Assembly (NCBI GenBank): GCA_021810145.1
Contig: JAJZJL010000007.1
Coordinates: forward strand, 1 to 60,840
Length of the DNA: 60,840 nucleotides
Origin: Planctomycetota bacterium
Lineage (GTDB): Bacteria > Planctomycetota > Phycisphaerae > WQYP01
Reading direction: 5' to 3'
In this document: piece after piece, positions 4,993 to 23,489 of the stretch
Numbering within the stretch: the stretch's first letter is position 1
How the letters are laid out: each line of letters starts with the position of its first letter
Program-made: the position numbers and the translations under genes
Notes under the pieces: model-generated
What the model was told of the DNA's origin: nothing
What the model saw: the letters and a program-made list of their open reading frames with translations, nothing else
Databases searched by the model: none

Positions 4993-5113
4993 AATTCATA
5001 CTCCAATGCAAAAAATTGTCTTAAACCATTCATGCTTCGGTGCGGATCCATAATACAGGACCGCGCCGGCATCAACGGCAGCTTGAATCAACAGGATAAG
5101 GCCAAGGTGGGCC

Positions 5114-7009
5114 TCAGGCCAGCGTGCCCATGTCGCGTGCCATATTCGGTGGTGCCGATCCGACAATACCGAGTTCCATTTCATGAATGCCCTTACCGCT
5201 GGGCACCATGGGATAAACGTTTTCATCGGTTTCGCAAAGGAAATCCACCACGCACGGGCCGGGATGGCGGATCATTTCATCGACAACTTTCTGCACATCT
5301 TCTTTCTTTTCGCAACGGATGCCGCGTATGCCAAAGCTTTCAGCCATGGCCGCAAAATCCGGATTGATCATTTCCGTGTTGCTGAAGCGGCTGCCATAAA
5401 ACATCTTCTGCCATTGCCGCACCATGCCCTGAAAATTATTGTTCAGGATGGCCACTTTTACCGGCAACTGATATTGCCGGATTGTGGCGAGCTCCATGGC
5501 GGTCATGATAAAGGACGCATCGCCGTCAATATCAATCACCAGGTCCTTCGGCCGCGCCACCTGCGCGCCGATGGCGGCAGGCAGGCCATAGCCCATGGTT
5601 CCCAGTCCGCCGCTGGTAATCATGCTGCGCGGGATGCTCCAGCGGATAAACTGCGCCGCCCACATCTGATGCTGGCCCACGCCGGTGGTGAAAAAGGCGT
5701 TGCCGGCGGTGGCTTTGTTAATGGCTTCGATAATCGCCTGCGGCTTGGCCACCGGTGAATCATCACGATAGGCAAATGGATACTTGGCTTTCCATTGGGC
5801 AATCTGCTCCAGCCACTGCTGGCGCGGACGGTGTTCAATAAGCTCAATCATACCGGTAAGACACAACCGCGCATCGCCCACCACCGGCACATCCACCTTC
5901 ACGCTCTTGCTGATGCTGGTGGGATCAATATCCACATGCACAATTTTGGCCTTGGGGGCAAACAGCTTGAGATTACCGGTTACACGATCGTCAAACCGCG
6001 CTCCAATGGCAATAAGACAATCGGCATCCTGCACGGCATAATTGGCATACGCAGCGCCGTGCATACCCAGCATGTGCAGGCTAAGCGGATGATTTTCATC
6101 AAATGCGCCAAGGCCCAGCAACGTTGTGGTGCAGGGAATGTTCCCTTTTTCCGCCAATTCGCGCACTATTTTCCATGCACCGCTGATAATGGCTCCGCCG
6201 CCGACATACAGCACCGGCCGCTGCGACGCGTTAATCATTTCCGCGGCAGCTTTCACCATCCGGCTGTGGCCAAGGCGATAGGTTTTATACCCCGGCAGCC
6301 AGGGCGTATCATCAATGGCAGATTCCACCTTGTTGGTGGTGACATCCACCGGCAAATCCACCAGCACCGGACCGGGGCGGCCGGTTGTGGCAATAATAAA
6401 AGCCTCATTGATAATCCGGGGCAAATCTTTGACGTTCTTGACCAGATAATTGCGCTTGGTCACCGGCCGGGTAATGCCTGTAACATCCGCTTCCTGAAAG
6501 GCATCGTTCCCGATCACATACGTGCGCACCTGCCCGGAGAAAACAATCATCGGAATTGAATCCATGTAGGCGGTTGCCAGAGGTGTCACGGTATTGGTGG
6601 CCCCCGGGCCGCTGGTGACAATCACAATGCCGGGCTTGCCGGTGGCACGGGCGTAACCATCGGCCATGTGGCCGGCACCCTGCTCATGGCGCACAAGAAC
6701 AAAGTTAAGTTTGGTATCATAAAGCTGATCAAATGTCGGCAAAATGGCGCCGCCGGGATAGCCGAACGCATCGGTGACGTTGTGCTCCAGAAGCATCTGC
6801 AGCAATATCTGGGCACCGGTTTTTCCGATGTACCGATCCGTCAGACCCGTGGGATGCCCAAGAACCGGAAGTTCATTGCCGACTTCGGCTCCGGAATGGA
6901 CACCTGCCGCTGAAGGCGACGCTTCAGGCATTTTGTCAGTTTTGTTGGGCTTGGTGGTTTTGGAAGCTGCCGCTCTGGCCGCTCCCCCGCTGAGGGAAGT
7001 GCTGGACAT
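5114..7009 (-). CDS. ilvB: Acetolactate synthase large (catalytic) subunit
   Basis: The 631-aa thiamine-diphosphate enzyme condenses two pyruvates, or pyruvate with 2-oxobutyrate, in the first committed step of valine, leucine and isoleucine synthesis. It shows the N-terminal ThDP-activating Glu in RHEQGAGHMADGYAR, the FAD/central-domain segment GARFDDRVTGN, and the ThDP-binding GDASFIMTAMEL...NNN block. The first ~60 residues are an Ala/Ser/Lys-rich extension absent from most homologues. GAGG lies 5 nt before the ATG at 7009. The partner ilvH follows downstream. Confidence 0.96.
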   Translation of the reverse strand: MSSTSLSGGAARAAASKTTKPNKTDKMPEASPSAAGVHSGAEVGNELPVLGHPTGLTDRYIGKTGAQILLQMLLEHNVTDAFGYPGGAILPTFDQLYDTKLNFVLVRHEQGAGHMADGYARATGKPGIVIVTSGPGATNTVTPLATAYMDSIPMIVFSGQVRTYVIGNDAFQEADVTGITRPVTKRNYLVKNVKDLPRIINEAFIIATTGRPGPVLVDLPVDVTTNKVESAIDDTPWLPGYKTYRLGHSRMVKAAAEMINASQRPVLYVGGGAIISGAWKIVRELAEKGNIPCTTTLLGLGAFDENHPLSLHMLGMHGAAYANYAVQDADCLIAIGARFDDRVTGNLKLFAPKAKIVHVDIDPTSISKSVKVDVPVVGDARLCLTGMIELIEHRPRQQWLEQIAQWKAKYPFAYRDDSPVAKPQAIIEAINKATAGNAFFTTGVGQHQMWAAQFIRWSIPRSMITSGGLGTMGYGLPAAIGAQVARPKDLVIDIDGDASFIMTAMELATIRQYQLPVKVAILNNNFQGMVRQWQKMFYGSRFSNTEMINPDFAAMAESFGIRGIRCEKKEDVQKVVDEMIRHPGPCVVDFLCETDENVYPMVPSGKGIHEMELGIVGSAPPNMARDMGTLA

Positions 7010-8700: not shown

Positions 8701-9621
8701 TCAGTTTTTTACCGCAAAGACCTTCACACTCGCGGCATAGGCATTGACATCATACCGCCGCAGCACATCGGCAATATCCGCGTGCAATGGCTTGATGGGG
8801 GCCGAAGAATTGCAGCAGCCGGTGGATACAACGGTTAATCTTGATCCGCCTTTTTCCGCGGGAGGCTGCTGATGGCGGTCATCACTCATGGGCGTTGAGC
8901 AGCAGCCCACTTGTCCATCAGCCTGAGCGTACGCATTAAGATCCGCACCGCTGTCGATAACGGCGATACTGGAAAAACCGGCTTGCGCCAGATGCTGTTG
9001 ATATTCCTCAATGAGCACCGCACCGGCAATACACCCGACATAGGCGCCAATATTATTGGCGAGTTCGGCAGGCAGCGGCTTTTTTAACGCAATATCGCTT
9101 ACCGCCAGGCGGCCGCCGGGCTTGAGTATTCGGAATATTTCCCGCATGACCGCCGATTTATCCGGGGCCAGATTAATCACACAGTTGGAAATCACACAGT
9201 CGGCAGAGCCTGCGGGAAGCGTGGTGTTATCAATGGTGGCCAGGATAAATTCAACATTTGTGTAGGGCCGGCCATCCGGACCGTGTGCGGCATTTTTCCT
9301 GGCGCGGTCGATCATGCTTGGCGTCATATCAATACCAATGGCCCTGCCCGCCGGCCCGACTTTGGCAGCCGCCAGAAATACATCCAGCCCCCCGCCGCAA
9401 CCCAGATCAACGATGGTTTCACCCGAACGCAGCGACCCCATGGCGGTGGGATTGCCGCAGGAAAGCCCCATATTGGCCCCAGCGGGTATGGCTGCGAGTT
9501 CCGCCGCCGAGTAGCCGAACGATTCCGCCACAGCCCTTATTCCGGCATCCGCGCCGGAAAGACTTGATTGCGCTACAGCCCCATAGCGGGCCTGCACTTC
9601 ATTGACAATAGTTTGAGACAT
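8701..9621 (-). CDS. arsM: Arsenite S-adenosylmethionine methyltransferase
   Basis: The 306-aa class I methyltransferase has the SAM motif [15 protein letters not shown], the conserved NMGLSCGNP cysteine motif, [12 protein letters not shown] and VGCIAGA, whose cysteines match the arsenic-binding residues of ArsM. The C-terminal third adds GCCSTP and STGCCNSS. It methylates As(III) to mono- to trimethylated species. I chose ATG 9621 (AAGGATT ribosome site) over an upstream ATG at 9663. The start overlaps the acr3 stop by 23 bp, so translation is probably coupled. Last gene of the ars operon. Confidence 0.93.
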
Positions 9622-10765
9622 GTTCTGAATCCTTATGTAATATTTTCGTTGAACCATTAACACTGTTAATCATTGCCGGGCAGGCCGCATTGGCATCCAC
9701 GTCCGCACCCGCCGATACCGCATCTTTGAAAATCCGGCGTTGGAAATACAACGCCACATTCACCAGACCGATCATGACCGGAACTTCCACCAGCGGACCG
9801 ATGACCGCGGCAAATGCCGCTCCGGAATTGATTCCAAAAACCGCCACCGCCACCGCTATGGCCAATTCAAAATTATTGCTGGCGCTGGTCAGCGCAATGG
9901 TAGTGGTTTTGGAATAATCCGCACCACTCTTCCGGCCAAGCCAGAAACTCAATAGAAACATGATTAGAAAATAGACCGCCAGCGGAATCGCCACGCGTAC
10001 CACGTTCAATGGAATGTCAACGATCAACCGCCCTTTCAGGCTGAACATCACCAGGATGGTAAACAGCAGCGCGATAAGCGTTATCGGGCTGATGCGCGGG
10101 ATAAATTTTTGCTCGTACCATTGCCGCCCCGCCACGGGCAATAATACCGATCGTGTTAACAGTCCCGCGACAAACGGAATACCTAAATAGATTCCCACGC
10201 TTTCGGCAATCTGAACAATGGTCACCGCCACCGCACTGCCTTTGAACCCCAGCATGGGCGGAAGAACGGTGATAAACACCCACGCATACAGGCTGTAAAG
10301 CAGAATCTGAAAGACGCTGTTAAAGGCCACCAGTCCCGCGGCATATTCCGCATCACCTCTGGCCAGATCATTCCAGACAATCACCATCGCGATGCACCGG
10401 GCCAGGCCCACAAGAATCAATCCCGCCATCAGTTCCGGATAGCCGTGCAAAAATGCGATCGCCAGAACAAACATCAACACCGGGCCGATGAGCCAATTCA
10501 AGGTCAGTGACAGACCCAGGACCTTCCAATCGCGAAACACATTGCCGAGCCGCTCATAGCGCACCTTGGCCAGCGGCGGATACATCATGGCAATGAGTCC
10601 GATGGCGATGGGGATATTGGTTGTACCAATCTGAAATGCGTTGATAACCCCCGCACTGGATGGAATAAAATAGCCGATTGCGACGCCAAGGGCCATGGCG
10701 GCAAATATCCAAAGCGTCAGATATCGATCCAGATAATTGAGTTTGCGGGATATATGTTCAGTCAT
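9599..10765 (-). CDS. acr3: Arsenite efflux permease, ACR3 family
   Basis: The 388-aa polytopic membrane protein of the bile/arsenite/riboflavin transporter fold has about ten hydrophobic helices and the ACR3 signature in [18 protein letters not shown], including the conserved Cys needed for As(III). It extrudes arsenite. The start overlaps the arsC stop by 4 bp (ATGA) and its end overlaps arsM. A poorly conserved tail follows the last helix. Confidence 0.94.
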
Positions 10766-11220
10766 TGCCCGGCCTCCGTTGATGGAGCCAACAAAGCTTC
10801 CGGAAGCGTTGCGACAAAATCCCGTATTTGATCGCGCACGCGCCGATAATGGGTCAGAGCCTCTTCCGGCGTTTTGGCGGCCTTGGCCAGTTTTGGCGGG
10901 TCATCAAAACCAACATGCACAATGGCGGTCTTTTTTCCCAACCATGCCGGACAGGTTTCATTGGCATGGCCGCATACGGTAATGACCGCATCAAACGGCA
11001 CATTTATCAACTCATTGACATTTTTTGATTTATGAGCGCTGATATCCACTCCCGCCTCCGCCATGACCCGCACCGCGCTGGGATTTAAGCCATGCGTTTG
11101 AATACCCGCGGAATAGGCTTCAAGCACGTGGCTCTTCAGATGCCGCGCCCAGCCTTCCGCCATTTGGCTGCGGCAGGAGTTTCCGGTACAGAGAAAGAGA
11201 ATTTTCAGTTTTTGAGCCAT
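10762..11220 (-). CDS. arsC: Arsenate reductase, low-molecular-weight phosphatase type
   Basis: The 152-aa protein opens with the P-loop CTGNSCR (CX5R) after LKILFL, as in thioredoxin-coupled ArsC related to low-molecular-weight tyrosine phosphatases. It also has the [13 protein letters not shown] segment with the redox cysteines. It reduces arsenate to arsenite for export by Acr3 or methylation by ArsM. The gene lies 65 bp downstream of arsR and overlaps acr3 by 4 bp. Confidence 0.94.
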
Positions 11221-11285
11221 CGGATCACATTCCCATTATATACGCTTACACACATATATTAGCCAAAAAAAAAGGCTATTCCTCT

Positions 11286-11657
11286 TCATTGACAACATTC
11301 CGGCCCACACGCTTTGGCCCCCAGGCGTTTGCGGTCAAGCATTAATTCCGGCACGGTATTAAAACAGCTCCGCAGACAATTCATTAAACTCTGATGGAAA
11401 TCATCATCGGCCGGAATCAGCTTGTAGTGCATCCACAAGCCATCTTTACGAGCCTGCACCAATCCCGCCCTGCGAAGATACGCCAGGTGTCGGGAGATTT
11501 TAGGCTGTGACATTTCCAGCACGCGGACAATATCACATACACACAGTTCGCCATCCAAAAGCAGATGCAGAATCCGCAGGCGGGTCCGATCGGAAAATGC
11601 CCGGAACATTCGATCCGCTGATGCGCCAGAGACAGATTGTTTTACTGCCTTAACCAT
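11286..11657 (-). CDS. arsR: ArsR-family arsenite-responsive repressor
   Basis: The 123-aa winged-helix regulator shows RAFSDRTRLRILHLLLDGELCVCDIV, with the Cys-Val-Cys As(III) site on helix 3, then the recognition helix MSQPKISRHLAYLRRAGLV and a Cys-rich C-terminus (ACGPECCQ). I chose ATG 11657. The upstream frame reads through the promoter/operator, and no Shine-Dalgarno sequence precedes the ATG. The predicted -10 ends only 9 nt before it, so the transcript is probably leaderless or nearly so. Arsenite binding should release it from the palindrome at 11656-11675 and induce the operon. Confidence 0.92.
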   Translation of the reverse strand: MVKAVKQSVSGASADRMFRAFSDRTRLRILHLLLDGELCVCDIVRVLEMSQPKISRHLAYLRRAGLVQARKDGLWMHYKLIPADDDFHQSLMNCLRSCFNTVPELMLDRKRLGAKACGPECCQ

Positions 11658-11675
11658 ATATGCTATAGCATATAT
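11656..11675. promoter_or_regulatory. Perfect 20-bp palindrome, likely ArsR operator
   Basis: ATATATGCTATAGCATATAT is a perfect palindrome. It overlaps both the predicted -10 box and the arsR start codon on the minus strand, so a bound repressor would block initiation. Confidence 0.75.
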
Positions 11676-11696
11676 ACTCACCCGCCAATAAGTCAA
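11667..11696 (-). promoter_or_regulatory. arsR promoter
   Basis: On the minus strand, TTGACT (11696-11691) and TATGCT (11672-11667) are separated by 18 bp. Initiation 7-9 nt past the -10 falls at or within a few bases of the arsR ATG. Confidence 0.65.
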
Positions 11697-11988
11697 GCTT
11701 CCAGCAGAACAAAAATTAATACCCAGAGTCCGTGGCACTTTGCGTCCACTGGCCGGCGAAAGTTATGCCCAATCCTCTTTGGAGCTTTTCGCCGTTTCCA
11801 CCGTTTTGAAGATGCCTTATGAACCAGGCAAAAGCACAAAGACCGTGAGAGCGGCAGGACGCCATCCATTATCAGTGACCAGCGAGCAATGGACAATAAT
11901 GTGACAACTTTAGCTCAGGGCTTGGCAAAATGCTATATGCTAAATTCCCAATTCACTCTATCCGCGTTATCCGCGATATCCGCGGTTT

Positions 11989-13677
11989 CTACCGTCGCTG
12001 CTGCTTTGGTAACGAAAGAGAACCACGGATAACGGGGATGACGCGGATATTAGAAACGGTTCCGAAGGTGCCCTGGTTCACGCACTTTATCCGTTCAATC
12101 CGTGGAATTGTTTTTACATTCCATGCAAGATGAGCAGCGCAATAATCAACGCCGCACGCGGGGCACTTTTCATGGCCTGATTCTTCGCGTATAATTCGTG
12201 CTTGCTCAATCGCCGGAGTGGCGGAACTGGCAGACGCGCTGGACTCAAAATCCAGTTCTCGCAAGAGAGTGTGGGTTCGATTCCCTCCTCCGGCATCCGC
12301 AACAAAATCAACGCTTTCCCGCACTAGACGCGGCTTTCCTTGCGGGGCGGCCTTGGAATTCCCCATCAATCCTTGGTGGCACGCGGCGGCACGAAAAGGC
12401 ACCGTTTTGCCCCCAGTTTTCCCCCCTAATTCCCCCGCATGGAGTTCTGTAGATAAGTTATCTGTACCGGTGGGTAAGAGTACCTGCCGTTTGGATTCAC
12501 TTACAGGGCTTTCCATTGGGCTTGGTAGAGACTCAATAGCCCGGTTGGCATCGTGCAGACTCATGTGTGCGTAGGTGCCAAGGGTAAGCATCGGCGTTGA
12601 ATGACGGGCAAGCTCTTGGCAAGTCTTAATGCTTGCACCGGATTGCACCAGCCAGCTTACATAGCTGTGCCGCAGGGCGTGAAAATCCAGCTTACGGCCA
12701 TCGGTATCAACCGTGCGGAGAAAATCTCCCTTGCGCAGTTCCCGCCGCTCTTGGCCCGCTGCCATGGCTTTGTAATGGAGAGCACGGGCATAACGCAGGT
12801 CACTGCGGAACATCGCCCCGGTGTGGGTTCTGGCCACGGGAAACAGCACGGCATCTACGGGCTTGCCTACGAGCCAAAATTTTAACTCGGTGGTCAATGA
12901 TGCGCTCAACGGTTGAACATCATCGCGGCGTCGTTTACTGTACGCGGCCTTGAGCACCACGCAAGGCGGTTTATCTTCAAGGCGAAAACTCTTGGCCGTT
13001 AAACTCCGAAGCTCGGCGGCCCTTAAGCCGCTTCCACCAGCCAAGGCGTAAAGCATACTGCGGTCTACGCCGGACAAATTCCATCGCACCGGCCCGGCCT
13101 TGGTGTGGGTAATCAACGCGGTGAATTCTTCACGGCTCAAGCCCCGGCGGCGGATGATGCGCTCGGATTGCTGGATTGTGGTTTTCACTGTCAGGGACGC
13201 AAGGGCATCTTCGCCTACACGGCCATTACGCCAGAGCCAGCGGGAAAACATTTTGATGGCCCGGCGGTAATGTGCCACGGATGCGGCACTTAGGCCGCCT
13301 TGGCTTTCCAGTTTTGAAATAGCTGCGTTGACGGCCCTTGGCGTGAGTTCTCCGATGCGCTCAATCCCGGCAGCTTCGATGGCGGCGGTGCAACGGTGCC
13401 CGGTTGTTTCCGCGTGTAGCGCTGTGCCACCACGGGCGAGAATATCCGCCTTGAATTCAGAGAGGTGATCGGCCAGCGGGCGGCGCTCGGCAGCGGAGAA
13501 CCTATCCATGCTGGCGTCAATGATCCCGCTTAACCGCAGCTTAGCTTCCGTTGAAAGTTTGTTGGCAATCTGCTGCGCGGCAGACTTTTCAGAACCGCAA
13601 TTCTTTTTGTGCCAAAGGCCATCCGCACCCATGTAACTTGCAATCCAGCTTTTGCCACGTCGATAAACGCTTGCCAT
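11989..13677 (-). CDS. int: Tyrosine recombinase (integrase) reading through the att site
   Basis: The 562-aa open frame has an N-terminal arm-binding-like region (SVYRRGKSWIASY), a SAM-like core-binding domain (~65-165) and a catalytic domain. The catalytic set is complete: Arg219 (SGLRAAEL), His333-Arg336 (HALRHSYVS), His359 (ARHSTP) and Tyr369 (GTYAHMS). After ~residue 380 comes a long tail. From about residue 460 it is encoded by the antisense of the att core and tRNA-Leu, then by host DNA. The native tail is probably the segment stranded at 22158-22341 (see finding). It catalyses element integration and excision. Confidence 0.9.
   Translation of the reverse strand: MASVYRRGKSWIASYMGADGLWHKKNCGSEKSAAQQIANKLSTEAKLRLSGIIDASMDRFSAAERRPLADHLSEFKADILARGGTALHAETTGHRCTAAIEAAGIERIGELTPRAVNAAISKLESQGGLSAASVAHYRRAIKMFSRWLWRNGRVGEDALASLTVKTTIQQSERIIRRRGLSREEFTALITHTKAGPVRWNLSGVDRSMLYALAGGSGLRAAELRSLTAKSFRLEDKPPCVVLKAAYSKRRRDDVQPLSASLTTELKFWLVGKPVDAVLFPVARTHTGAMFRSDLRYARALHYKAMAAGQERRELRKGDFLRTVDTDGRKLDFHALRHSYVSWLVQSGASIKTCQELARHSTPMLTLGTYAHMSLHDANRAIESLPSPMESPVSESKRQVLLPTGTDNLSTELHAGELGGKTGGKTVPFRAAACHQGLMGNSKAAPQGKPRLVRESVDFVADAGGGNRTHTLLRELDFESSASASSATPAIEQARIIREESGHEKCPACGVDYCAAHLAWNVKTIPRIERIKCVNQGTFGTVSNIRVIPVIRGSLSLPKQQRR
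12212..12295 (+). tRNA. tRNA-Leu(CAA), integration site
   Basis: Cloverleaf with acceptor stem GCCGGAG/CTCCGGC plus discriminator A, anticodon loop CTCAAAA giving CAA, a long variable arm (TCTCGCAAGAGAG region), and T arm GGGTTCGATTCCC. No 3' CCA is encoded. Its 3' part (from 12233) is duplicated at 22342-22409, marking it as the attachment site of the adjacent element. Confidence 0.95.
12233..12300. repeat. Left attachment repeat (tRNA-Leu 3' part)
   Basis: 68 bp identical to 22342-22409. It covers the tRNA anticodon arm to just past the 3' end, and also lies within the integrase reading frame on the minus strand. Confidence 0.93.
12417..12437. repeat. 21-bp C-rich direct repeat, left copy
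   Basis: A TTTTCCCCCCTAATTCCCCC word also found at 22271-22291. On the minus strand both copies encode a Gly-Glu-Leu-Gly-Gly-Lys motif, once in the integrase tail and once in the detached tail at the right end. Confidence 0.8.
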
Positions 13678-13680
13678 AAA

Positions 13681-13896
13681 TCACCGCTTTTCTTTCTCCG
13701 GCTTATCCGCCGGTTTAACTTCAATATCCAAAGCCATAAACATTTTTCGCAGATTCTTGCCTTGAATGTCCCGCTTGCCGTTCAAGAAATTCGATACGCG
13801 GGACTTGGTTATCCCGGTGCGGCGCACAAGTTCATTTTGTGATAAGCCTTGGCGTTCAAGTTCCGCCCTAATCAGTTTCTTAAAATCCATTTTCAT
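13681..13896 (-). CDS. XRE-family repressor-like regulator
   Basis: The 71-aa Cro/CI-type helix-turn-helix protein has SQNELVRRTGITKSRVSNFLNG as the HTH and a charged tail. It sits 3 bp upstream of the integrase, so it probably shares a transcript with it and controls the element. A TTGACA-17-TAACAT promoter places the transcription start at the ATG itself (13896), implying a leaderless mRNA. An internal ATG (13890) is a possible alternative start. Confidence 0.82.
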   Translation of the reverse strand: MKMDFKKLIRAELERQGLSQNELVRRTGITKSRVSNFLNGKRDIQGKNLRKMFMALDIEVKPADKPEKEKR

Positions 13897-13902
13897 ATTT
13901 CT

Positions 13903-13931
13903 ATGTTAGCACAAAGAATAACCATTGTCAA
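13903..13931 (-). promoter_or_regulatory. Promoter of the XRE-int unit
   Basis: On the minus strand TTGACA (13931-13926) and TAACAT (13908-13903) are 17 bp apart. The -10 ends 6 nt before the start codon. Confidence 0.7.
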
Positions 13932-14052
13932 GCACAATCCAAAATTATTTTATGGAATAGGTGGCACGCGGCGCGGCTTGTTGGCCGTGACAACGCGAGC
14001 AGCGGAATAGATTGTCCAAGCCGGGGATTGCCGTGCGATCACGCCTTCAGGT

Positions 14053-15663
14053 TTACCGCACCGGTATTATCTTAACTACGAGGTCTTTTGCCACGGACAA
14101 ATTTATGCCATTCCATTTCAGATGGTAATAAAAATCCCCAGTAGTGTAGGTCGTTGCTTCCATTTTAGTTCCGCTTTTCATCTTGAAAACGTATCCCGTA
14201 ATGGGCAGAAGAGCGACTACCTTTTTCGGTTGAAAATAATGGGGGCTGCGGGCACAGTAGAGAATTTTTACCGTATACGCTGTACAGGGTGGAATCTGCT
14301 GTGATGGGACGTTGAGTGCGGGCACATTGGCTAAAAATCCTGCGGGAGGGGCCGTTTGCGGCAAGGGTCGGAAATAAACCTGCGACCGCAACTGCTGGCC
14401 CGATGGCAACGAAAACTGCGGCGTTTCGCGGGAAACGCTCTGGGATGATATTCCCACAACAACGCCATATACCGCTCCGCTGCTTGGAGTCTTTCCTCCC
14501 GCCGGAGCAACCATTTGGGCACCGCTTTGCGTGCCATGAAACGCGAGGGCGACTAGCCGCAAGTCTGTTCTCTGCATCTTGTACGCAGCCGCGGTTACCG
14601 TAGAACACTCTCTTTTTTCGCCAAATATTAGAGACTGGTTTACCTGCCAACCCATCGCATTAGGGGCCTCCCGCTTCAGGATGTCCAATTGCCATCGGTA
14701 TTCCGCTTTTTTCCTTAGCCGGGCCTCTTTACGAATTAATGTGAAGTGTTGGATGATCTGGTTGCGCAGGCGAAGCCTCTGGATGCGTAGTTGCCGTGAG
14801 AGATGGCCAGTAGCGGTAGTACTGCCGGCGATGACAAGATTGCCAGCGGCATCGGTTTTAAGGAAAGCGGTCACGCGGTGTCCGATAATTTTCTTTGGGT
14901 TGGTTTGGTATCTTGACAACTCGGCAGCAAGCGCCGGCACTGAGTTCCACTCCACTGGCTTCATCGCTTCCGCCAACATCTTCGGCCATTGGTCTGCCGG
15001 AATCGCGTCGCCTACGGCGTGGCCCTGTTCCTGCGACACTGTTTGGCCCCCAATCGGAAGGCCGCCGGGATGGAAAAGAGGAGAGGGCTGATTGACAGCC
15101 CCCGTCGGCACCGCGCGCGGCAGCAACATAGCGGCGGCGGCTTTGTCCTGTGCGAGTTGGAATTGTGCCGTTTTAAGTTGCGACATATCGCCAACGACCA
15201 GTTGGGCTTTACCGGCTTTCATATCCTTCGCCACGCTTGCATTTATGCTCGCAATTTTCCGCTGATCTGCGGAAATAATGGCGTCGGCCACCGCCTTGTC
15301 GCGTGCAAGTTCCAGTTTTAGCTCCGGTTGGGCAAGGCCGGTGGTGTTTGTTGCTGGCTCGAAGCCCGGCGGGAACGATGACGAACGTTTTTCGTTTGCC
15401 AAGCGGGCGCTGACGGATACGATAAGTTGCTGCGCCGCGACAACGGCGTTGGGGTCGCCCTTTTTCATGGCGGCAGAGGTGGCCGCGTTAAGGGCGGAAA
15501 TTTCAGCTTTGTCCGCCGCGATAACGGCTTGCCATGCTGTGGATTGTGCGCTGGCCGCCGCAATGGCCCGCACCTGATTCTGTGAACCCAGCGCAATGCC
15601 AATCGGTATGGTCGCCATTACCAAGGCGATTCGCCACCGGGGGTTGATGGTTAATGATTTCAT
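14053..15663 (-). CDS. Secreted element-encoded protein of unknown function
   Basis: The 536-aa protein has a Sec signal (WRIALVMATIPIGIALG, residues ~10-33). Residues ~45-95 and ~125-175 look like two copies of one Ala-rich helical unit (ADKAEISALNA...AMKKGDP...LAN and ADQRKIASINA...DMKAGKA...LAQDK). A basic helical stretch follows (~300-330) and then a Pro/Ser-rich C-terminal half ending in a beta-rich segment. I recognise no family. Its ATG overlaps the stop of the ParB-like fragment by 4 bp (ATGA), so it belongs to the element's operon. Confidence 0.7.
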   Translation of the reverse strand: MKSLTINPRWRIALVMATIPIGIALGSQNQVRAIAAASAQSTAWQAVIAADKAEISALNAATSAAMKKGDPNAVVAAQQLIVSVSARLANEKRSSSFPPGFEPATNTTGLAQPELKLELARDKAVADAIISADQRKIASINASVAKDMKAGKAQLVVGDMSQLKTAQFQLAQDKAAAAMLLPRAVPTGAVNQPSPLFHPGGLPIGGQTVSQEQGHAVGDAIPADQWPKMLAEAMKPVEWNSVPALAAELSRYQTNPKKIIGHRVTAFLKTDAAGNLVIAGSTTATGHLSRQLRIQRLRLRNQIIQHFTLIRKEARLRKKAEYRWQLDILKREAPNAMGWQVNQSLIFGEKRECSTVTAAAYKMQRTDLRLVALAFHGTQSGAQMVAPAGGKTPSSGAVYGVVVGISSQSVSRETPQFSLPSGQQLRSQVYFRPLPQTAPPAGFLANVPALNVPSQQIPPCTAYTVKILYCARSPHYFQPKKVVALLPITGYVFKMKSGTKMEATTYTTGDFYYHLKWNGINLSVAKDLVVKIIPVR

Positions 15664-15887
15664 CGTTCACCTCTTGAAATTAGGTCTTTTTGGTTACAGC
15701 CAGTATAAGGCGTCTCCTGTCGGTTCCACAAGCCAAGGCCACAGATGCTTTCAGCCAGTGCAATAATTTCCGGGTCGGCGGGATCAATCGGCCTATACAG
15801 TGTGTCATTTTCCGGCGCGGGTTTAATATCATCAATCGAAAACAGGACTAGTCCCGTTTCGGTTTTTGGTTCAATTTCAGCAATCAT
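15660..15887 (-). pseudogene. Truncated ParB/sulfiredoxin-like N-terminal fragment
   Basis: From ATG 15887 (GGGAG ribosome site) the 75-aa product matches the start of ParB-like proteins: LFSIDDIKPAPENDTLYRPI followed by DPADPEIIALAESI. It then loses similarity after GLGL and ends without the GHRR nuclease/CTPase motif. In the next 40 bp fragments resembling the lost continuation appear in other frames (GLVEP, then DRRRLILAV), consistent with frameshifts and deletion. The open frame extends up to a GTG at 16040. It may still be translated because its stop overlaps the next start. Confidence 0.6.
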
Positions 15888-16047
15888 AAAAACAGGCTCC
15901 CGAATGTTGTCCCGGCAATCACCAGGCGGCCAAGAATCATCCGCCAGCAGTTCGGCACAAGGCCCCAAGCCCGGCGGCGGCGTTTTAAACAGGCGGCAGT
16001 GGCGGGCAGCGGCATTGTGCAGCCGCCTCGCCACCGACACCGGACAA

Positions 16048-16197
16048 TTACTGTTGTCGCCGGGTTAATCCGCGCGTGTCAATCGCGGCCAGTTCGCCGC
16101 AGACCGCAATCCACAGCCGCTTTTCCCGGCGGATCAACCGTTGACCGGCGGCTTGCTTGCGAGCCAAGCGAATGTATGTGTCTTCTAAGGATTTCAT
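16048..16197 (-). CDS. Small basic hypothetical protein of the element
   Basis: From ATG 16197 a 49-aa basic peptide (MKSLEDTYIRLARKQAAGQ start) that looks largely helical. There is no clear ribosome site and no known family. It is kept because it fits the tight same-strand gene array between the TubC-like gene and the ParB fragment. Confidence 0.4.
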   Translation of the reverse strand: MKSLEDTYIRLARKQAAGQRLIRREKRLWIAVCGELAAIDTRGLTRRQQ

Positions 16198-16281
16198 GGG
16201 TGTGTCCAATCTGCCGTTATTCCGGCTTTGGGTGTTAAACCGCAATTAAAAGGCTTGCGGTTCGCCTTACGGTGGATTGTG

Positions 16282-16548
16282 TTAGGTCATAGGCCGCCAA
16301 TAAGCGGGATCCAAAACGTGTGAAGAAAACGCCTCCGCTTCGCCGTCAAGGGATACATACCGGCGCACCGGGTTTTGCTCGATCTGGAGCATGGCCAAAA
16401 CAGCAGGCTTGTGGTGCCGTAACCAGTCTTTTTGTACAGGTGTTAAGGCGGCCAAATTGCCTTGGATTTTTATGTTCCCATCGACGGCGGAAATGGCCAC
16501 GCCAAGAGCTTTCAATTCGGATAGAAAATTGGTGATTGTCAGGCTCAT
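16282..16548 (-). CDS. TubC N-terminal docking-like small protein
   Basis: The 88-aa protein resembles the TubC_N docking fold often seen in planctomycete mobile elements: a leading helix FLSELKALGVAIS, a beta pair DGNIKIQGNLAALTPVQKDWL, and a closing helix HKPAVLAML. A C-terminal extension ends AYWRPMT. Its ATG overlaps the stop of the upstream ATPase gene by 4 bp. It could be a partner or loading factor for the replication ATPase, which is inference from position. Confidence 0.65.
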   Translation of the reverse strand: MSLTITNFLSELKALGVAISAVDGNIKIQGNLAALTPVQKDWLRHHKPAVLAMLQIEQNPVRRYVSLDGEAEAFSSHVLDPAYWRPMT

Positions 16549-18386
16549 AAAAGCATATCCTCTTGATCGGTGTTTTGAATATAGGTTGACGCCGGGACGG
16601 GCGCGGCTGGTTGGCCAGTTTGCGGAACCGCTGGGGTATCAAACAGTCCCTTGGCGGGGGGTGTTTCCGGCGGTTCGGGTAATGGTGTTTCCGGCGCTCC
16701 CCCTAACACGTAAGGAACTTGGCACGCTACTACTTTGGGAGTGTTTTCCCCTTTGTTTTCAATAGGATGACAGGATGCCATATTGTTTGCGTGTGCCAAG
16801 TTATCCAAACTACTTGGCACGCTACTTGGCACGCTTGAATTTGGTGGCAGACTCCAGCGGTATTCCTTGGTTGAAAAGTCGCTTTCCCGGACGACGTTGA
16901 GGCTATCGGCGGCTCGCTGAACAGTGCGCCAAGACAGGCCAGCGGCGGAGGATTCGGCACGGATTTCCGACACCCGTTTTGAACCGCCAAAAAGATACCG
17001 CGAAAGCCATTCCTCGGCGGTGTTCCGCGCCTCTGGCTTCGGCCCCCTTATAGTCATGCCGCTGACCTCCGCCTGATGGTCATCCGCAGACATTTGTACG
17101 GGTTCATCTTCCCATTGAATAGCGGCAGGTTCCCCGCCGATTGAAAATGCCAAGCCGTCAGGCTGGCGGCAAAGGTTCATCTTGCCGGGTAAGAGTAGGC
17201 GGCGCTCCGGGTTATTTTCGTCGCGGCTAAGGTGCCATACGGCACGGGACAATCCAACAAAGCCGATACTGCCGAGAGCCATATCGTCAGCACTGGCGGC
17301 AGCGGACTTCCGCCGGTGTGCAACGATGACAATCGCACAATTATATTTCTCCGCCAAGGCCATCAGTGGAGCCAAAACCGCGCGAATCTCATTATCCCTG
17401 TGGCCGTCAACCTTGCCGCCAAGGAATGAGCCAATCGGGTCAATAAAAATTATCTTGACGCCGGGATGGTCTATCAACGCCTGTTCCAACTGTGCAATAT
17501 CAGCAAGAGTAAAGCCGCGTTCTTTTTTCTGGCCGGTGGAATCACGATACGCCACGGTTTTCAGAATGAAAATCTTGGAGCAATCCGCGCCGTGTGCATC
17601 CAATCGCGGCCTTATGGTATCGGCAGGATCATCTTCGCCGGACACCAGTATCACGTAACCTGGCGGACAGTGTGTTCCATCCGGCCAATATCCGCCGTTG
17701 GATATGCTGGACGCCATGAAAGCGGTCAGGAATGACTTCCCTTCGCCGGGTCGGCCTACCAACATGGATATACGGCCAAGCGGAATACGTCCCGGCCATA
17801 GCCATGTAATTTCGCGCGGCTCTATGTCATTCGCGCATTGCATTACAGCACCAAGGCCGCCAGCTTGGCCGATCTGCTGCAAGGCCGCCAACTGTGTTTG
17901 CGCGGTTGCTATGATGGTGTCCAGAATTGCATCACCAGCCGCACCATTGGCCATCTCTTGAGCTATCCGGATGAGTTTTCGACAAGCATATTTATATTTG
18001 ATGATTGACGCATAGCCGTCCGCACCGGCGGCGGACGGGACATCCCGGACGCAATCGGTAAAATAATCACGATCAAACTTAGATACGCCGTGCGACTTGA
18101 ACCAGTTTACCAGCTTGACGACATCGGGAGCGCCGTTGTCACTGATCGAATTTTCGGCATGAAGAAACGCTGTAATCTCTCGCCATAGCCGTTGGTGTAA
18201 TGGCGACACGAACATATCAATGGTCGCAAGCGTGATTGCGGCAGCATCATATCCCACTGATCCAAGTAATGCCGCTTCCGCCGGGTCACATTCAGGAATC
18301 AGTACGTCAATAACGGGCGGTTCCGCGTTCTGCCGCGGCCTCGCTGTAGTGGTGTGTTCGGTATTTTGTGGTATAGTCATGTTCAT
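16545..18386 (-). CDS. RepA/DnaB-like replication ATPase
   Basis: The 613-aa protein has an N-terminal DnaB-type helical domain (CDPAEAALLGSVGYD, residues ~30-165). A RecA-fold AAA ATPase follows, with Walker A GRPGEGKSF, ILVSGEDDPADTI, Walker B IIFIDPIGSF and the sensor VIVAHRRKS. This pairing is found in plasmid and island helicases of the RepA/AAA_25 group. A low-complexity linker and Pro-rich C-terminus follow. It probably drives element replication or maintenance. It overlaps the TubC-like gene. Confidence 0.82.
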   Translation of the reverse strand: MNMTIPQNTEHTTTARPRQNAEPPVIDVLIPECDPAEAALLGSVGYDAAAITLATIDMFVSPLHQRLWREITAFLHAENSISDNGAPDVVKLVNWFKSHGVSKFDRDYFTDCVRDVPSAAGADGYASIIKYKYACRKLIRIAQEMANGAAGDAILDTIIATAQTQLAALQQIGQAGGLGAVMQCANDIEPREITWLWPGRIPLGRISMLVGRPGEGKSFLTAFMASSISNGGYWPDGTHCPPGYVILVSGEDDPADTIRPRLDAHGADCSKIFILKTVAYRDSTGQKKERGFTLADIAQLEQALIDHPGVKIIFIDPIGSFLGGKVDGHRDNEIRAVLAPLMALAEKYNCAIVIVAHRRKSAAASADDMALGSIGFVGLSRAVWHLSRDENNPERRLLLPGKMNLCRQPDGLAFSIGGEPAAIQWEDEPVQMSADDHQAEVSGMTIRGPKPEARNTAEEWLSRYLFGGSKRVSEIRAESSAAGLSWRTVQRAADSLNVVRESDFSTKEYRWSLPPNSSVPSSVPSSLDNLAHANNMASCHPIENKGENTPKVVACQVPYVLGGAPETPLPEPPETPPAKGLFDTPAVPQTGQPAAPVPASTYIQNTDQEDMLL

Positions 18387-18453
18387 CCTTTATTATTTGC
18401 CGGTGTCGCTGATCAAAGCGCCCGGCCATTGCAAGGCCGGAACCGGCGGGGTG

Positions 18454-18645
18454 TCATCGGACAGGCAGGGCACGACAAAACCGATCCAGTTCAACCGGAT
18501 CGATCCGGACACATTTGCCAATTCGCACGGCGCGAATCTGGCGCGATGCGCAGAGTTTCCGGACGTAGCGCTGCGAAACTTGCAATCGCTCGGCAACTTG
18601 CGAATATGTCAAGAAGTTCCCATCAACGGGCGGGGTGGTGGTCAC
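18454..18645 (-). CDS. MerR/HTH_17-type excisionase-like protein
   Basis: The 63-aa protein has a winged-helix signature: LTYSQVAERLQVSQRYVRKL, then IRAVRIGKCVRIDPVELDRF. This is the pattern of excisionase/AlpA-type DNA-binding proteins, so it is a candidate Xis. I chose the GTG at 18645, which forms a GTGA overlap with the preceding stop. An in-frame ATG at 18690 would instead overlap the previous gene by 49 bp. Confidence 0.75.
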   Translation of the reverse strand: MTTTPPVDGNFLTYSQVAERLQVSQRYVRKLCASRQIRAVRIGKCVRIDPVELDRFCRALPVR

Positions 18646-18833
18646 GGTTGCACCGCTTTCGCCCGTCGCGGACGGCGCGTAATGTCGCATCGCAGTCTGC
18701 GCAGCTCGGCGCGTGCCACGTCAGCGCGTGCCGTATCGTCGGCCTGCACGGCCATCGCCAGCACAGCGCCCCAGTAGCCCACGCTATCGCGGCCTACGCG
18801 GTCGGTGTCCAGTGGTCGGGTGATCGTCGCCAT
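18642..18833 (-). CDS. Small element protein, first of the replication operon
   Basis: From ATG 18833, preceded by GGAG at 8 nt, a 63-aa Ala/Arg-rich, mostly helical protein (TDRVGRDSVGYWGAVLAMA) of unknown family with a basic C-terminus. Its stop overlaps the HTH gene start. As the first gene after the iteron-like repeats it could be regulatory, but nothing in the sequence proves it. Confidence 0.55.
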   Translation of the reverse strand: MATITRPLDTDRVGRDSVGYWGAVLAMAVQADDTARADVARAELRRLRCDITRRPRRAKAVQP

Positions 18834-18868
18834 GTCGTGTACTCCATATCTGTACACTTATGGGCGGC

Positions 18869-18955
18869 GGCGTCAATTCGGCGTCAATAAATAATGAAAA
18901 ACCCGCTATTTTAGCGGGTGGAATGGTGGTCAAGAATTGTCAATACGGCGTCAAT
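18869..18955. repeat. Iteron-like phased repeats GGCGTCAAT
   Basis: GGCGTCAAT occurs at 18869, 18880 and 18947, with ATTGTCAAT at 18936. Each pair has an 11-bp period and the pairs are ~5 helical turns apart, flanking a terminator hairpin. They lie just upstream of the excisionase/ATPase operon. Candidates are iterons, arm-type integrase/excisionase sites or operators. Confidence 0.6.
18896..18918 (-). terminator. Intrinsic terminator of the 18960-19607 gene
   Basis: CCCGCTA pairs with TAGCGGG, followed on the minus strand by five T. Confidence 0.75.
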
Positions 18956-18959
18956 ATTT

Positions 18960-19607
18960 TCATTCCTTTTGGTTTTCGGCGTGCTTTTCTTTGAATTTAC
19001 TAAGCCATCGGCGACAGCTTGATTCGCTTACGTCCACGCTCTGGGCGAGCGCTGGAATATCATTCATCAGCGTTGGATGCGCCGAACACTTGGCAAGCAG
19101 TTCCGCTTTCTTCGCTTCTGATGACGCCCTGGTCAGCCGTCCAACCCTATGCGATGCAGGCTCTCCCGCTACAGCGGCCGCGGCGGGTTGATCCGCTTGT
19201 CCAGCTATTTTGCCTGCCTCTCGCTCAAGTACACCGGCCACCATTGGGCACCCGAAGAGAATCGTCAGCTCAAGCTCACCATGCCCACCAGTGACGTTGC
19301 TATCCCATTCGTTTTCCCCAATGTTAAACACTTTCCGGTTGTCGAAGAGAACATGACAGAACCACCAGAAATTCTCCGTCACCCGCAGTGCTTCCACCGG
19401 GGGTGCCCACTCTATCGATTCCAGTACTCCTTTGTCAGCCAACCGGCGCAACAGGGATATGGCGCTCGTATTGAGATCACCGGCCTGCGGCAGCGGCGAA
19501 AGCCGAATACGCTTGTGCTCTGCCTCACGCTCATTGTAAATTTCAAGCTGGCGACGTATGCCGGTAGCTGTTGTCCCTAACAGGTTTACCCGTTCCGAAT
19601 TTGTCAT
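18960..19607 (-). CDS. Element protein with C-terminal helix-turn-helix
   Basis: The 215-aa product is of unknown family. The N-terminal ~130 residues are mixed alpha/beta with no motif I recognise. After an Ala-rich linker, the C-terminus (DIPALAQSVDVSESSCRRWLSKF) looks like a helix-turn-helix. AAGGA lies upstream of ATG 19607, and a terminator follows, so it is its own transcription unit. A regulatory or origin-binding role is plausible but unproven. Confidence 0.65.
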   Translation of the reverse strand: MTNSERVNLLGTTATGIRRQLEIYNEREAEHKRIRLSPLPQAGDLNTSAISLLRRLADKGVLESIEWAPPVEALRVTENFWWFCHVLFDNRKVFNIGENEWDSNVTGGHGELELTILFGCPMVAGVLEREAGKIAGQADQPAAAAVAGEPASHRVGRLTRASSEAKKAELLAKCSAHPTLMNDIPALAQSVDVSESSCRRWLSKFKEKHAENQKE

Positions 19608-20059
19608 ATTTCACCGTCCTTAGATCGGGCCAGCCAGAGCGTCAGGCGGACGGTGAATCAACCCAACGCTATGGCCAGTTCAGCGGTTGCAAGCCGCTTC
19701 CCGCAGATATTTTATCACGCCGCGCGGCGACACACCACTTATCCATCACGCGGCCCCACGTTTCATGTGTGTGCCAAAGCGTGCCACGGCACGCCGGAGC
19801 ATGCACAGCGATGGAGGCCGTGCCAACCACACGCCCATCACACTCGTGTAATTACTATGTTATATCCATTTTCCGGTGCGGGTGCGCGGACGTTCAGCCC
19901 TTCCTTGGTTCGCACTTCTTCAGTCCCTCCCGCAGTTCATGCCACGTCCTCGGCAAAGTCCGCCAGTGGTACCGACAAGGCCTCGGGCTTCAACCGCATA
20001 CTGATTCGCACGTCCTGATCCAGCCTATCCCAGCAGGCGTCGAAGATTATGAAAACGGG
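19608..20059. other. Non-coding spacer inside the element
   Basis: No gene seen. It should carry the promoter of the 18960-19607 gene. A segment around 19790-19880 (AGCGTGCCA...CACGCCCATC...) is similar to the region before the TonB-tailed gene (about 21910-21985), suggesting a shared regulatory repeat. Confidence 0.45.
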
Positions 20060-21772
20060 TCAGGATGTAAGCTGGTAGCGAATAACAAATTTACTTTGCA
20101 CCGGCTTTCCGCCGACGATATTGGGCAAAAACCGCGCCTGCAGGAGCGCCTTGATAATCGCCCGATCGATGCTCGTATGGCCGGAGGATATTAATACTTT
20201 TACGTTGGCCACCGTACCATTCCGACGAATCGTCAATTGAAATTTAGGGCTCACCAGATGCGCCGGCCACGCAGATTGGTATTTCCGGGGCATTATCGGA
20301 TTGGGCGGCGGCGTAACGATACTGCCGCCACCGCCAACGCCTGCTCCACGCCCCGGCCCGCTGCCAGTGGCGGATCCCAAGCCGTTCTGCGTTCTAGGTT
20401 TGAACAACTGCACCGCGCCACCACCCGCTGCGTGCGGCTGCAACCCGCGTGAATTTGGCAGTGGCCCACGGCTATTGGCCGCAACTGTCGGCAGATTGAT
20501 TACACCGGCAACGTCTCGGGGTGGATTTTCCAGCGTGCTATGCTCTACCGCGATCCGGGCGGTGGCCGAGGCGTGTATGGCAGATGCGGATGAATTTTCC
20601 AGTGTACTATAGCCTACCGCGTGCCCCTCGTTGATGTCCGCGCGGATATTCTCGCCACCTGCCACCGTTACGGGGTGCCTGTAGTCCAGCACGCCGGACA
20701 GCCCAAAACTCGTTGATGCGGGAATGATAAAGAAATAGCGCCCAGCCGGAATATCCGTGAAATGGTAATGCCCCTTAAAATCGGCTTTTGTTTTGGCGGC
20801 CATGGCTTTAAGTACCATCGCTTTGACCGCGTCGGAACCAGAAACATTGCCAATGCTTCCACCGCAAAGTCGATATGTTGTCTCGATAGTTTTAATAGCG
20901 GAAAAGGTGCCTATCCGTGGGGGAAGGTGGCCAGCGAGCAGCAGCCGTTTCTCCAGCGCCTTGTGGTACGCCGCTTGGGCCTGTTGGTACACGTCAAATA
21001 TGTAGCCTTCCGTCTCCTCTTCACTGCTTTCCGGGCTCCCCATGGGTTGGGACATCCGCCCCGCCACCGCGCTGCACTCCTCACACGCCCTGTGGTACGC
21101 CGCCCCTGCTGCCTTCCGGTAGGCCCTATGTACCTTGTCGCGGTGCCTTTCATATTCATCCATTGCTGTGTAGTACGCCGCCTGTGCCCTGTCGTACGCC
21201 CTGTATGCCTTGTCGTACGCCGCTGATGCGCGGGCTGCCTTGAGGTACGCCGCCTCCAACACAGGTATCCGCGCAATCAGTGCGACCAGCGCGGCGTGCA
21301 GTTTCGGTTGGTTAAGTATGGCAAGGACAGCGGCGCGCGGTACCGTCCGCCTGATAAGCCACACGTTCTTATCCCGGCCCAGGTGCATCACGCCCGCCGA
21401 GGTACGCCACCAAACGCGACCATGGATTGAACCGGAGGGAACAGGCAGGACAACCGCTACGGCCTTCTTGACACCTTGTATGCCCGCCTTAATTTCCCGC
21501 GATGTCTGGCCGGAAGCCCAAGACATCCAAGCCGCCAGGATTGCCACCAGCAGTAAGGCAACGGCAGCGGCGGCCCCAGTGGCGATAGCCATCACGACGG
21601 GATGCTGGCGGTAAATCTCCGTTAGCCGCGCCATCAGCGGCTTGCCCGGCAGTACCACCGCACCCGCTTCCAGCCTCGCACGACATTGGGCGCAGACAAC
21701 GGCCCCTTGCCAGAGGCAGGGCGTCTCATTAACGGCAATGACGCGCCTGCAATTTTCGCAAGTTTCTGCCAT
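20060..21772 (-). CDS. Zinc-ribbon, membrane, TonB-tailed envelope protein
   Basis: The 570-aa protein starts at ATG 21772 (GGGAGGAA ribosome site); the upstream open frame is not supported. Layout: cytoplasmic zinc ribbon (Cys5, Cys8, Cys27, Cys30), one transmembrane helix (~58-84), a region rich in Ala/Tyr (AAYDKAYRAYDRAQAAYYTA) that is probably coiled coil, a carboxypeptidase-regulatory-like beta domain (HYHFTDIPAGRYFFI), a Pro/Gly-rich linker, and a TonB C-terminal domain (FQLTIRRNGTVANVKVLISS...). It could span the periplasm and contact an outer-membrane partner. It is unusual cargo for a 10-kb element. Confidence 0.75.
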   Translation of the reverse strand: MAETCENCRRVIAVNETPCLWQGAVVCAQCRARLEAGAVVLPGKPLMARLTEIYRQHPVVMAIATGAAAAVALLLVAILAAWMSWASGQTSREIKAGIQGVKKAVAVVLPVPSGSIHGRVWWRTSAGVMHLGRDKNVWLIRRTVPRAAVLAILNQPKLHAALVALIARIPVLEAAYLKAARASAAYDKAYRAYDRAQAAYYTAMDEYERHRDKVHRAYRKAAGAAYHRACEECSAVAGRMSQPMGSPESSEEETEGYIFDVYQQAQAAYHKALEKRLLLAGHLPPRIGTFSAIKTIETTYRLCGGSIGNVSGSDAVKAMVLKAMAAKTKADFKGHYHFTDIPAGRYFFIIPASTSFGLSGVLDYRHPVTVAGGENIRADINEGHAVGYSTLENSSASAIHASATARIAVEHSTLENPPRDVAGVINLPTVAANSRGPLPNSRGLQPHAAGGGAVQLFKPRTQNGLGSATGSGPGRGAGVGGGGSIVTPPPNPIMPRKYQSAWPAHLVSPKFQLTIRRNGTVANVKVLISSGHTSIDRAIIKALLQARFLPNIVGGKPVQSKFVIRYQLTS

Positions 21773-22157
21773 GATTATGTTCCTCCCGAAGTTCGGCATT
21801 ATAGCAGTACAGAAATAGAACCGTCCAGCAGGGCCGCCGGTGTCCCAGTCGGAATCGGCATACAGCATGGCTCCCTGTCTCATGTACCGGTATGACAAGA
21901 GCGGCCCAAAGCGTGCCAGTGGTGGAAGCCATTTAGAACACACGCCCATCGCACACATACTCTTTCTATAACCGTTTCGCCGGGAATGTTGGCGAAAATG
22001 CCTGTCAAAACCGTTTTTCGGTGCGTTCGCGCATGAGTTGAGTACAGGATGAAATTCATTTTCTTCAATCCCTCCCTGTAAATTCATACCGGCGAAAATT
22101 AAAGCCGCATTACGCACATATCGCCAGTTCCGCCGACAAGACTTCCCGAATACCATT

Positions 22158-22341
22158 CTAACCGATACCGGCCATCAACAAGATAGCTTGTTTCACATTC
22201 TCCGGTAATGCTCCCCATCGCCCCGCAAGGCGCTGTAATTGGCCATCCGCGTTTGCGGAATTTGATTCGATTTTCCCCCCTAATTCCCCCGGTTGTTTTG
22301 GACGTGCAGAAAACCCTTTGTTTTCAATGGTTTCGTGATTT
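22158..22341 (-). other. Detached integrase C-terminal tail at the right end
   Basis: Immediately inside the right att repeat, the minus strand keeps the integrase frame open through the att core and encodes ~60 residues ending in a stop (PGELGGKIESN ... RWGALPENVKQAILLMAGIG). In the integrated state no start codon or promoter serves it. In the circular form it would fuse in frame to the integrase. It shares the GELGGK motif with the integrase's own pre-att tail. Confidence 0.75.
22271..22291. repeat. 21-bp C-rich direct repeat, right copy
   Basis: Matches 12417-12437 and lies 51 bp inside the right att repeat. Confidence 0.8.
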
Positions 22342-22409
22342 GACGCGCTGGACTCAAAATCCAGTTCTCGCAAGAGAGTGTGGGTTCGATTCCCTCCTCC
22401 GGCATCCGC
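22342..22409. repeat. Right attachment repeat (tRNA-Leu 3' part)
   Basis: 68 bp identical to 12233-12300. It lacks the tRNA 5' half, so it is not a functional tRNA gene. Confidence 0.93.
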
Positions 22410-22679: not shown

Positions 22680-23435
22680 TCAGCCTACTGTGCGCCGACG
22701 CAGTACAGGCAACAGGGCCAATACCGCCAGGGCCAAAAGTATCCATGTAGCCGGCTCCGGTACGACTGTGGCAGTGCCGATGAGTGTACCATTGCTGAAT
22801 TCAAACAGATCACCGGAACCGCCGATGGGCACAGCGAAGTCCAGTTGTGCGGGCGTGATGCTCGCGTTGGCGGTACCTACTTCATTAAGATTGAACTGTT
22901 GCGCCAGGGACAACCCGCTGATGATATCCCCTTCAGCCGTGCTGGGCGTCAACGTGGGAGCAAGACTGCCACCGACACTGTTGGCAACCTGCTGCAAAAG
23001 CGTCAGATCACCGGGGTTGCCGCTTAACAGTGAAGAAAATGAAACACCGTTGGCTGCGGCATAATCATTTTGATTAATCACCGCCGCCAGGTCCGAGGTC
23101 CCAATGGCTCCGATAATGGAATAATAACTGGGTGCGGCGGTCAACGACAGCGAATCATAGCCAAAGCTTACACGCCCCGTTGTCGGCGCGGTGTTGGACA
23201 AAGTCAAGCTTGGCCCCATCGAAACCGCACCGATATTGGCCGTGGTTGCACTAAGCGGCTCAATGAGCACCATGTATGGATCTGTAAGCGTAATGGGCGT
23301 CGATGAATTTGAAGTGAGGCTGTAGGAAACAGTCCCGGCAGGTTGCAGCGCCTGCGATGTGGCCGCGGAGAGCGTCAGCCCCAGCAAAGCAGCGGCAGAA
23401 GCGAAAACCAACCGTGAAGCATTTTTTAATCGCAT
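22680..23435 (-). CDS. PEP-CTERM protein (canonical sorting signal)
   Basis: The 251-aa exported protein has a signal peptide (LVFASAAALLGLTLSAATSQA), a Ser/Thr/Ala-rich body and a textbook C-terminal signal: VPEPATW, a hydrophobic stretch and RRRTVG. It is expected to be cleaved by an exosortase and released or anchored outside the cell. I chose ATG 23435 (GAGG site) over a TTG at 23450. Its tail is the classic VPEP form, whereas the two proteins at 727 and 2233 carry a PLPxAFWPG variant, so the strain uses both. Confidence 0.9.
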   Translation of the reverse strand: MRLKNASRLVFASAAALLGLTLSAATSQALQPAGTVSYSLTSNSSTPITLTDPYMVLIEPLSATTANIGAVSMGPSLTLSNTAPTTGRVSFGYDSLSLTAAPSYYSIIGAIGTSDLAAVINQNDYAAANGVSFSSLLSGNPGDLTLLQQVANSVGGSLAPTLTPSTAEGDIISGLSLAQQFNLNEVGTANASITPAQLDFAVPIGGSGDLFEFSNGTLIGTATVVPEPATWILLALAVLALLPVLRRRTVG

Positions 23436-23489
23436 GGCACCGGCCCTCAAAGAAAAACATTCGTCAATGACACCTATTGAAACTGGTGA

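Follow-up and report, generated by a model that had tools for sequence, protein, structure and literature searches.

In phage lambda, attP is located outside the integrase gene (int). In Myxococcus xanthus phage Mx8, attP lies within int, and integration recombines the gene so that it acquires a new 3′ end (PMC6070905). This modifies the specificity of Int and does not inactivate the enzyme, and the related case of Mx9 is similar (PMC6070905, a review of myxophages); the swap of the Mx8 C-terminus was described in the 1990s (PMC6070905). Mx8 and SSV have been cited in the Islander paper as integrases that extend across attP (PMC4383910). In archaeal SSV-type (suicidal) integrases, attP is inside the integrase gene and integration splits the gene (PMC8371274), and a recent archaeal review describes self-disrupting recombinases as exclusively archaeal (PMC8371274). 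Integration-dependent immunity of mycobacteriophage BPs also relies on an attP inside a gene, where integration shortens the C-terminus of the product (PMC4557955). In ICEKp1 and ICEclc, int is expressed differently in the integrated and the circular state (PMC13023037). Here, we describe a planctomycete element whose integrase gene is, as read from its sequence, whole only as a circle or in tandem, and from which integration removes a conserved C-terminal module.

The window, meaning the whole 60,840-nucleotide stretch of DNA that was analysed (contig JAJZJL010000007.1 of a Planctomycetota bacterium, assembly GCA_021810145.1), contains a 10,109-bp mobile element at 12233 to 22341, bounded by an exact 68-bp direct repeat. 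This att core is made up of the 3′ 63 nt of tRNA-Leu(CAA) plus 5 nt. The features of the element and its target are as follows.

12212-12295, + strand: tRNA-Leu(CAA), the target gene, intact at attL
12233-12300, no strand assigned: attL core, 68 bp, 3′ part of tRNA-Leu(CAA), antisense and in frame in the integrase gene
22342-22409, no strand assigned: attR core, the second copy, 68 bp identical to the attL core
12301-13677, - strand: integrase gene, section shared by both states, with an arm-binding-like N domain, the core-binding domain, the catalytic domain and the beginning of the linker
11989-12232, - strand: stretch of host DNA by which the integrated integrase ORF is extended at its 3′ end, ~80 codons, not conserved
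22158-22341, - strand: severed integrase tail, 60 codons and a stop codon, sharing the int frame in the circular form only
22161-22253, - strand: conserved tail motif, predicted helical hairpin (ADGQLQRLAGRWGALPENVKQAILLMAGIG), from the tail profile (own-genome match, E 1.7e-11), the codon-position test and the AF2 model of a relative
16545-18386, - strand: DnaB-like helicase/RepA-type ATPase of the element (PF13481, 6.1e-31; phrog_19)
18454-18690, - strand: excisionase-like HTH protein, candidate recombination directionality factor (TIGR01764, 43.7 bits against a cutoff of 28.8, thus exceeding the NCBIfam cut-off; phrog_66 excisionase, 3.8e-08)

The severed tail is adjoined by a 698-aa frame (20060-22156) whose product has short repeats rich in alanine and tyrosine (KAYRAYDRAQAAYY) and a TonB C-terminal domain, an odd cargo given the small size of the element. 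Just beyond attR, a host gene (22680-23450) ends with a PEP-CTERM-like sorting signal (VPEPATWILLALAVLALLPVLRRR). On the other side, a host arsenic-resistance cluster (8701-11738) directly adjoins the tRNA-Leu target outside the element; it comprises genes for an arsM-like methyltransferase, an ACR3-type transporter, an arsenate-reductase-like phosphatase and an ArsR-family regulator, identities assigned mostly by eye, with Pfam support for the ArsR regulator only.

The integrase has both the domain (PF00589, E 1.4e-13) and the catalytic residues of a tyrosine recombinase. The R-K-HxxR-H-Y residues are invariant among 13 relatives and all precede the att core, so the catalytic core is intact in both forms, as the original prediction had it. 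In the integrated state, the ORF runs from 13677 to 11989 on the - strand and encodes 562 aa, with ~80 codons past the core; a single-sequence AlphaFold run of this form gave a mean pLDDT of 35. Joining the ends of the element in silico instead yields a 542-residue integrase (~541 aa had been predicted) ending in ...WGALPENVKQAILLMAGIG, with its stop at 22158-22160. The prediction that the core lies inside the integrase frame, and that the right copy keeps this frame open for about 60 more residues, thus agrees with the exact 68-bp in-frame repeat and the 60 codons found behind it. Read-through into ~80 host codons was also correctly predicted for the window, but it is not a conserved feature, as the host-side codons past the core range from 0 to >500 in relatives, many of which stop within the tRNA.

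The design extends well beyond the window. A related integrase is present in 289 of 392 genomes of the same phylum, and the best 80 GTDB loci carry nearly all Planctomycetota or planctomycete-group labels, a few others being labelled only 'bacterium'. A tRNA lies within 1.2 kb downstream of 105 integrases; 92 of these read at least 15 nt into it, 83 in antisense, and the read-through integrases use at least 18 tRNA isotypes. Where a second copy of the core could be located, the far-end frame led into a tail in most cases, while two read-through integrases (L038 and L065) have no recognisable tail. Isolate phages and plasmids searched with the window integrase held no relatives, and the integrase of locus L209 gave weak catalytic-domain matches only. 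Judged from these comparisons, this int-att-tail design is found again and again across the phylum. The genome that contains the window has one locus (L006; G000:C34:10627-10764) in which a window-like integrase linker runs into antisense tRNA-Arg; this locus lacks an integrase catalytic domain and is a decayed sister of the window element. Four further tail motifs in this genome (G000:C198:29138, C85:20159, C94:23259 and C149:7640; L278-L281) probably represent right ends left by other elements or by decayed ones.

All frames of an antisense tRNA are often open, and the continuity of integrase and tail could therefore be mere luck downstream of the core, with the tail motif reflecting att DNA. 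Indeed, different elements read the antisense tRNA in different frames, all three being represented (core peptides of the GFEP-, DSN- and IRT-type), and after shuffling, a core-to-tail linker is open one time in three. However, use of all three frames also means that the tRNA does not dictate the frame match. The match was examined in elements in which integrase and tail share a segment of at least 16 bp and both ends lie within the retrieved DNA (about one third of the read-through integrases). In all 35 such pairs, the frames agree and are open from the catalytic domain to the tail. Leaving out L040, where the longest shared segment is an arm repeat and not the core, integrase and tail form a single open frame across the core in 34 of 34 paired elements (L107 and L110 among them being close relatives), against 1 of 70 tests in which an alternative frame was open over the same stretch. 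As 23 of the 34 pairs were not used in building the tail profile, their frame agreement was not selected for, and its probability under a random frame is ~1e-11. In tandem arrays, moreover, non-cognate neighbour tails at the same spot and distance are out of frame in seven cases (L115+L116, L117, L120, L126, L131, L164 and L195). Together with the codon-position variation of the tails (below), these results led us to reject a chance open frame, which is scarcely credible. Besides these seven loci, L051 and L113 also look like related elements lined up in tandem at a single tRNA; the L051 integrase carries an internal stop, and its frame matches that of the neighbour's tail. Continuous int-tail ORFs occur in L182, L191, L208, L209 and L245.

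Since the integrated tail codons sit in a short open frame, they might alternatively be translated from attR as an independent small protein or peptide, with the continuity with int being incidental. This is very improbable: the 34 of 34 tails in frame with int across the core speak against it, as does the window tail, which lacks an ATG between core and motif and has just a TTG within the core.

The tail profile was built from eleven tails, in which W and LP are invariant. At E<=0.1, it finds tails in 157 of the phylum's 392 genomes; most of these tails sit in short frames, and often an integrase lies downstream of them, on the contig and strand that carry the tail. Among 60 distinct tails, W is kept in 59, L in 58 and P in 55, and diversity at codon positions 1, 2 and 3 is 0.47, 0.33 and 0.63. 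By this pattern, the tail is conserved at the protein level, with a W..LP core. Searches of Pfam, PHROGs, NCBIfam and PDB sequences with the tail returned no known domain. An AlphaFold model of the contiguous relative L209 (91-row alignment) contains an N-terminal sheet-plus-helix, core-binding and catalytic domains, a disordered region at 427-532 (the attP-encoded linker and core) and then a two-helix hairpin (pLDDT 85-87). The fold of the model matches Tn1549 Int and full-length lambda Int, and its N-terminus consists of three strands and a helix.

A conserved C-terminal tail that is lost upon integration could act as a degron, keeping Int low in the circle until integration removes the tail and stabilises the enzyme. 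An attP inside a gene with a C-terminal proteolysis tag is established for the BPs repressor (PMC4557955). In the tails studied here, conservation instead resides in an internal hairpin (W..LP), and the extreme C-termini are variable and not ssrA-like (MAGIG, ENGE, EGGQQ, KVEL), making such a stability switch improbable.

The original prediction had proposed looking for the attP junction in reads, and such a junction is present in an assembled contig. A 100% identical element from another metagenome (L127, MAG JA4.bin8) has integrase linker, core and tail contiguous at its left end without host DNA, while its right end extends 3 nt past the core into the tRNA; in MAG WY1.bin118 (L128), the same element is integrated with the same flanks. 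Assembled data thus contain an attP-type junction, from either a circle or a tandem copy. L127 need not be a free circle: it could be such a tandem copy, or could result from attL and attR reads assembled together. The bin that contains L127 has its own tRNA-Leu, a different allele with no integrase adjoining, so the L127 contig may stem from another community member. A terminal-repeat search for circular contigs found none beyond L127, and the exact attP junction was not found in IMG/VR.

Within the coding sequence, direct repeats lie on either side of the core. Those of the window are the following.

12417-12437, no strand assigned: putative arm-type integrase site on the integrase side, within the int coding sequence and made of tandem ~11-bp units, 21/21 identical to 22271-22291
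22271-22291, no strand assigned: putative arm-type integrase site, tail side, inside the tail coding sequence

A direct-repeat pair on both sides of the core is found in 30 of the 34 elements, above the 95th percentile of mismatched element pairs (P ~1e-18). The repeats often consist of two ~11-bp units, and their sequence is element-specific; the copy in the integrase linker usually lies 105-170 bp before the core, and the one in the tail linker mostly 50-63 bp behind it. Their codon phase is random, which argues for DNA-level sites; for the same reason, we rejected the GELGGKTGGK-type repeats as meaningful peptides. The flanking repeats are probably arm-type integrase sites embedded in coding sequence, and their fixed spacing around the core in these 30 of 34 elements is the arrangement expected for a heterobivalent integrase.

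These features suggest a heterobivalent tyrosine integrase of a tRNA-targeting element whose attP, roughly 250-300 bp with the core between two arm sites, shares the reading frame of int near its 3′ end, upstream of the conserved C-terminal tail. An excised or incoming circle would carry the continuous gene and make tailed Int. Integration at the tRNA gene cuts int within the core and leaves the tail codons at attR, and the chromosomal gene would then make a tail-less Int with an arbitrary antisense-tRNA or host C-terminus, until excision rebuilds the tail. A circle can yield no Int other than the tailed one, so a role of the tail in integration is most likely, and tailed Int would be the integration-proficient form. 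Loss of the tail may lower or redirect activity, thereby favouring the integrated state and limiting re-excision until excisionase is made, and tail-less Int together with the excisionase-like protein (18454-18690) would serve excision. We consider such a state-dependent enzyme, with an integration-favouring tailed Int from the circle and a tail-less Int from the chromosome that favours the integrated state until excisionase appears, the probable reading, though by no means a secure one. More tentatively, and just short of a reading that we would favour, gene topology may encode recombination direction throughout the phylum: an attP-borne hairpin would license integration, and the reaction would remove this licence until excision rebuilds the gene.

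The main rival to this scheme holds that the tail is a passenger, i.e. a domain of use to the circle, either structural or in contact with DNA or host factors, with tail-less Int being about equal in activity; the swap would then be a side effect of compact int-attP packing without regulatory meaning. We regard this as unlikely, yet it deserves serious weight. Of 133 classified integrases, 31 stop early, before the core; they are scattered over the tree, forcing at least 19 changes. The tail is therefore dispensable in some lineages and unneeded for catalysis. Such scattered tail-less relatives suit a passenger, as do the arbitrary lengths of the post-integration C-termini and the expectation that a compact int-attP module transfers well; the same repeated occurrence on the tree also points to a regulatory rather than a catalytic role of the tail. 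Against a passenger stand the phylum-wide conservation of the tail at the protein level and the strict frame continuity, which imply that selection acts on the circular-form protein, and the changed behaviour that an altered C-terminus confers in Mx8 (PMC6070905). The original prediction had named homologues ending before the att core as grounds for refutation: a minority does so, and the majority does not. Its central claim, that the circular form restores a specific C-terminus which integration replaces, holds in the window and phylum-wide, with the same tail type recurring in frame among other planctomycete integrases.

If state-dependent, this enzyme would add to the usual account of integrase direction, in which the choice is ascribed to accessory proteins and promoters, a reaction that rewrites its own enzyme. 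Tailed and tail-less Int form matched natural pairs suited to direct tests. The design also accounts for the antisense-tRNA C-termini that gene callers would assign to many planctomycete integrases, and a tail beside a tRNA fragment can serve as a marker of the far end of such islands.

Compared with the described systems, the window integrase resembles the lambda-type heterobivalent integrases in its catalytic residues, the putative arm-type repeats flanking the core, a predicted arm-binding-like N-terminal domain and the accompanying excisionase-like gene. In ICEKp1 and ICEclc the switch lies in the promoter, whereas here it would lie in the protein. The BPs gene encodes a repressor and its lost tail is an ssrA-like degradation tag; in the window element, attP is in the integrase and the tail end is not ssrA-like, which places it outside the BPs type. 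The original prediction had drawn an analogy with archaeal split integrases, and an attP inside int is indeed shared. However, SSV-type integration parts an N-terminal piece from the catalytic C-terminal piece and destroys the gene, whereas in the window the whole catalytic core stays on one side and only the tail is lost, so the element does not fall into the SSV type. The nearest analogue is instead Mx8 Int. In the Mx8 sequence (L277, int 5085-6809), the antisense tRNA 3′ end is in frame at residue ~456, some 60 residues past the catalytic Tyr region at 393, and is followed by ~110 residues. Both integrases have attP in the int frame with equal geometry, and in both integration changes the C-terminus only; they differ in that the tails are unrelated, and that one belongs to a single phage group and the other to a phylum-wide family with a shared tail motif. 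No clear relationship between them emerged from BLASTP (E 0.25) or from the tail profile on Mx8 (-2.5 bits). By its anatomy, the window integrase would thus work like Mx8 Int, membership by descent not being supported. The kind is already known from Mx8, though rare; in the literature that could be searched, there seems to be no earlier description of a family spanning the phylum, of its conserved tail or of its frame and arm-site anatomy. Contrary to the statement that self-disrupting recombinases are exclusively archaeal, a self-rewriting integrase is here kept by selection in a widespread bacterial family.
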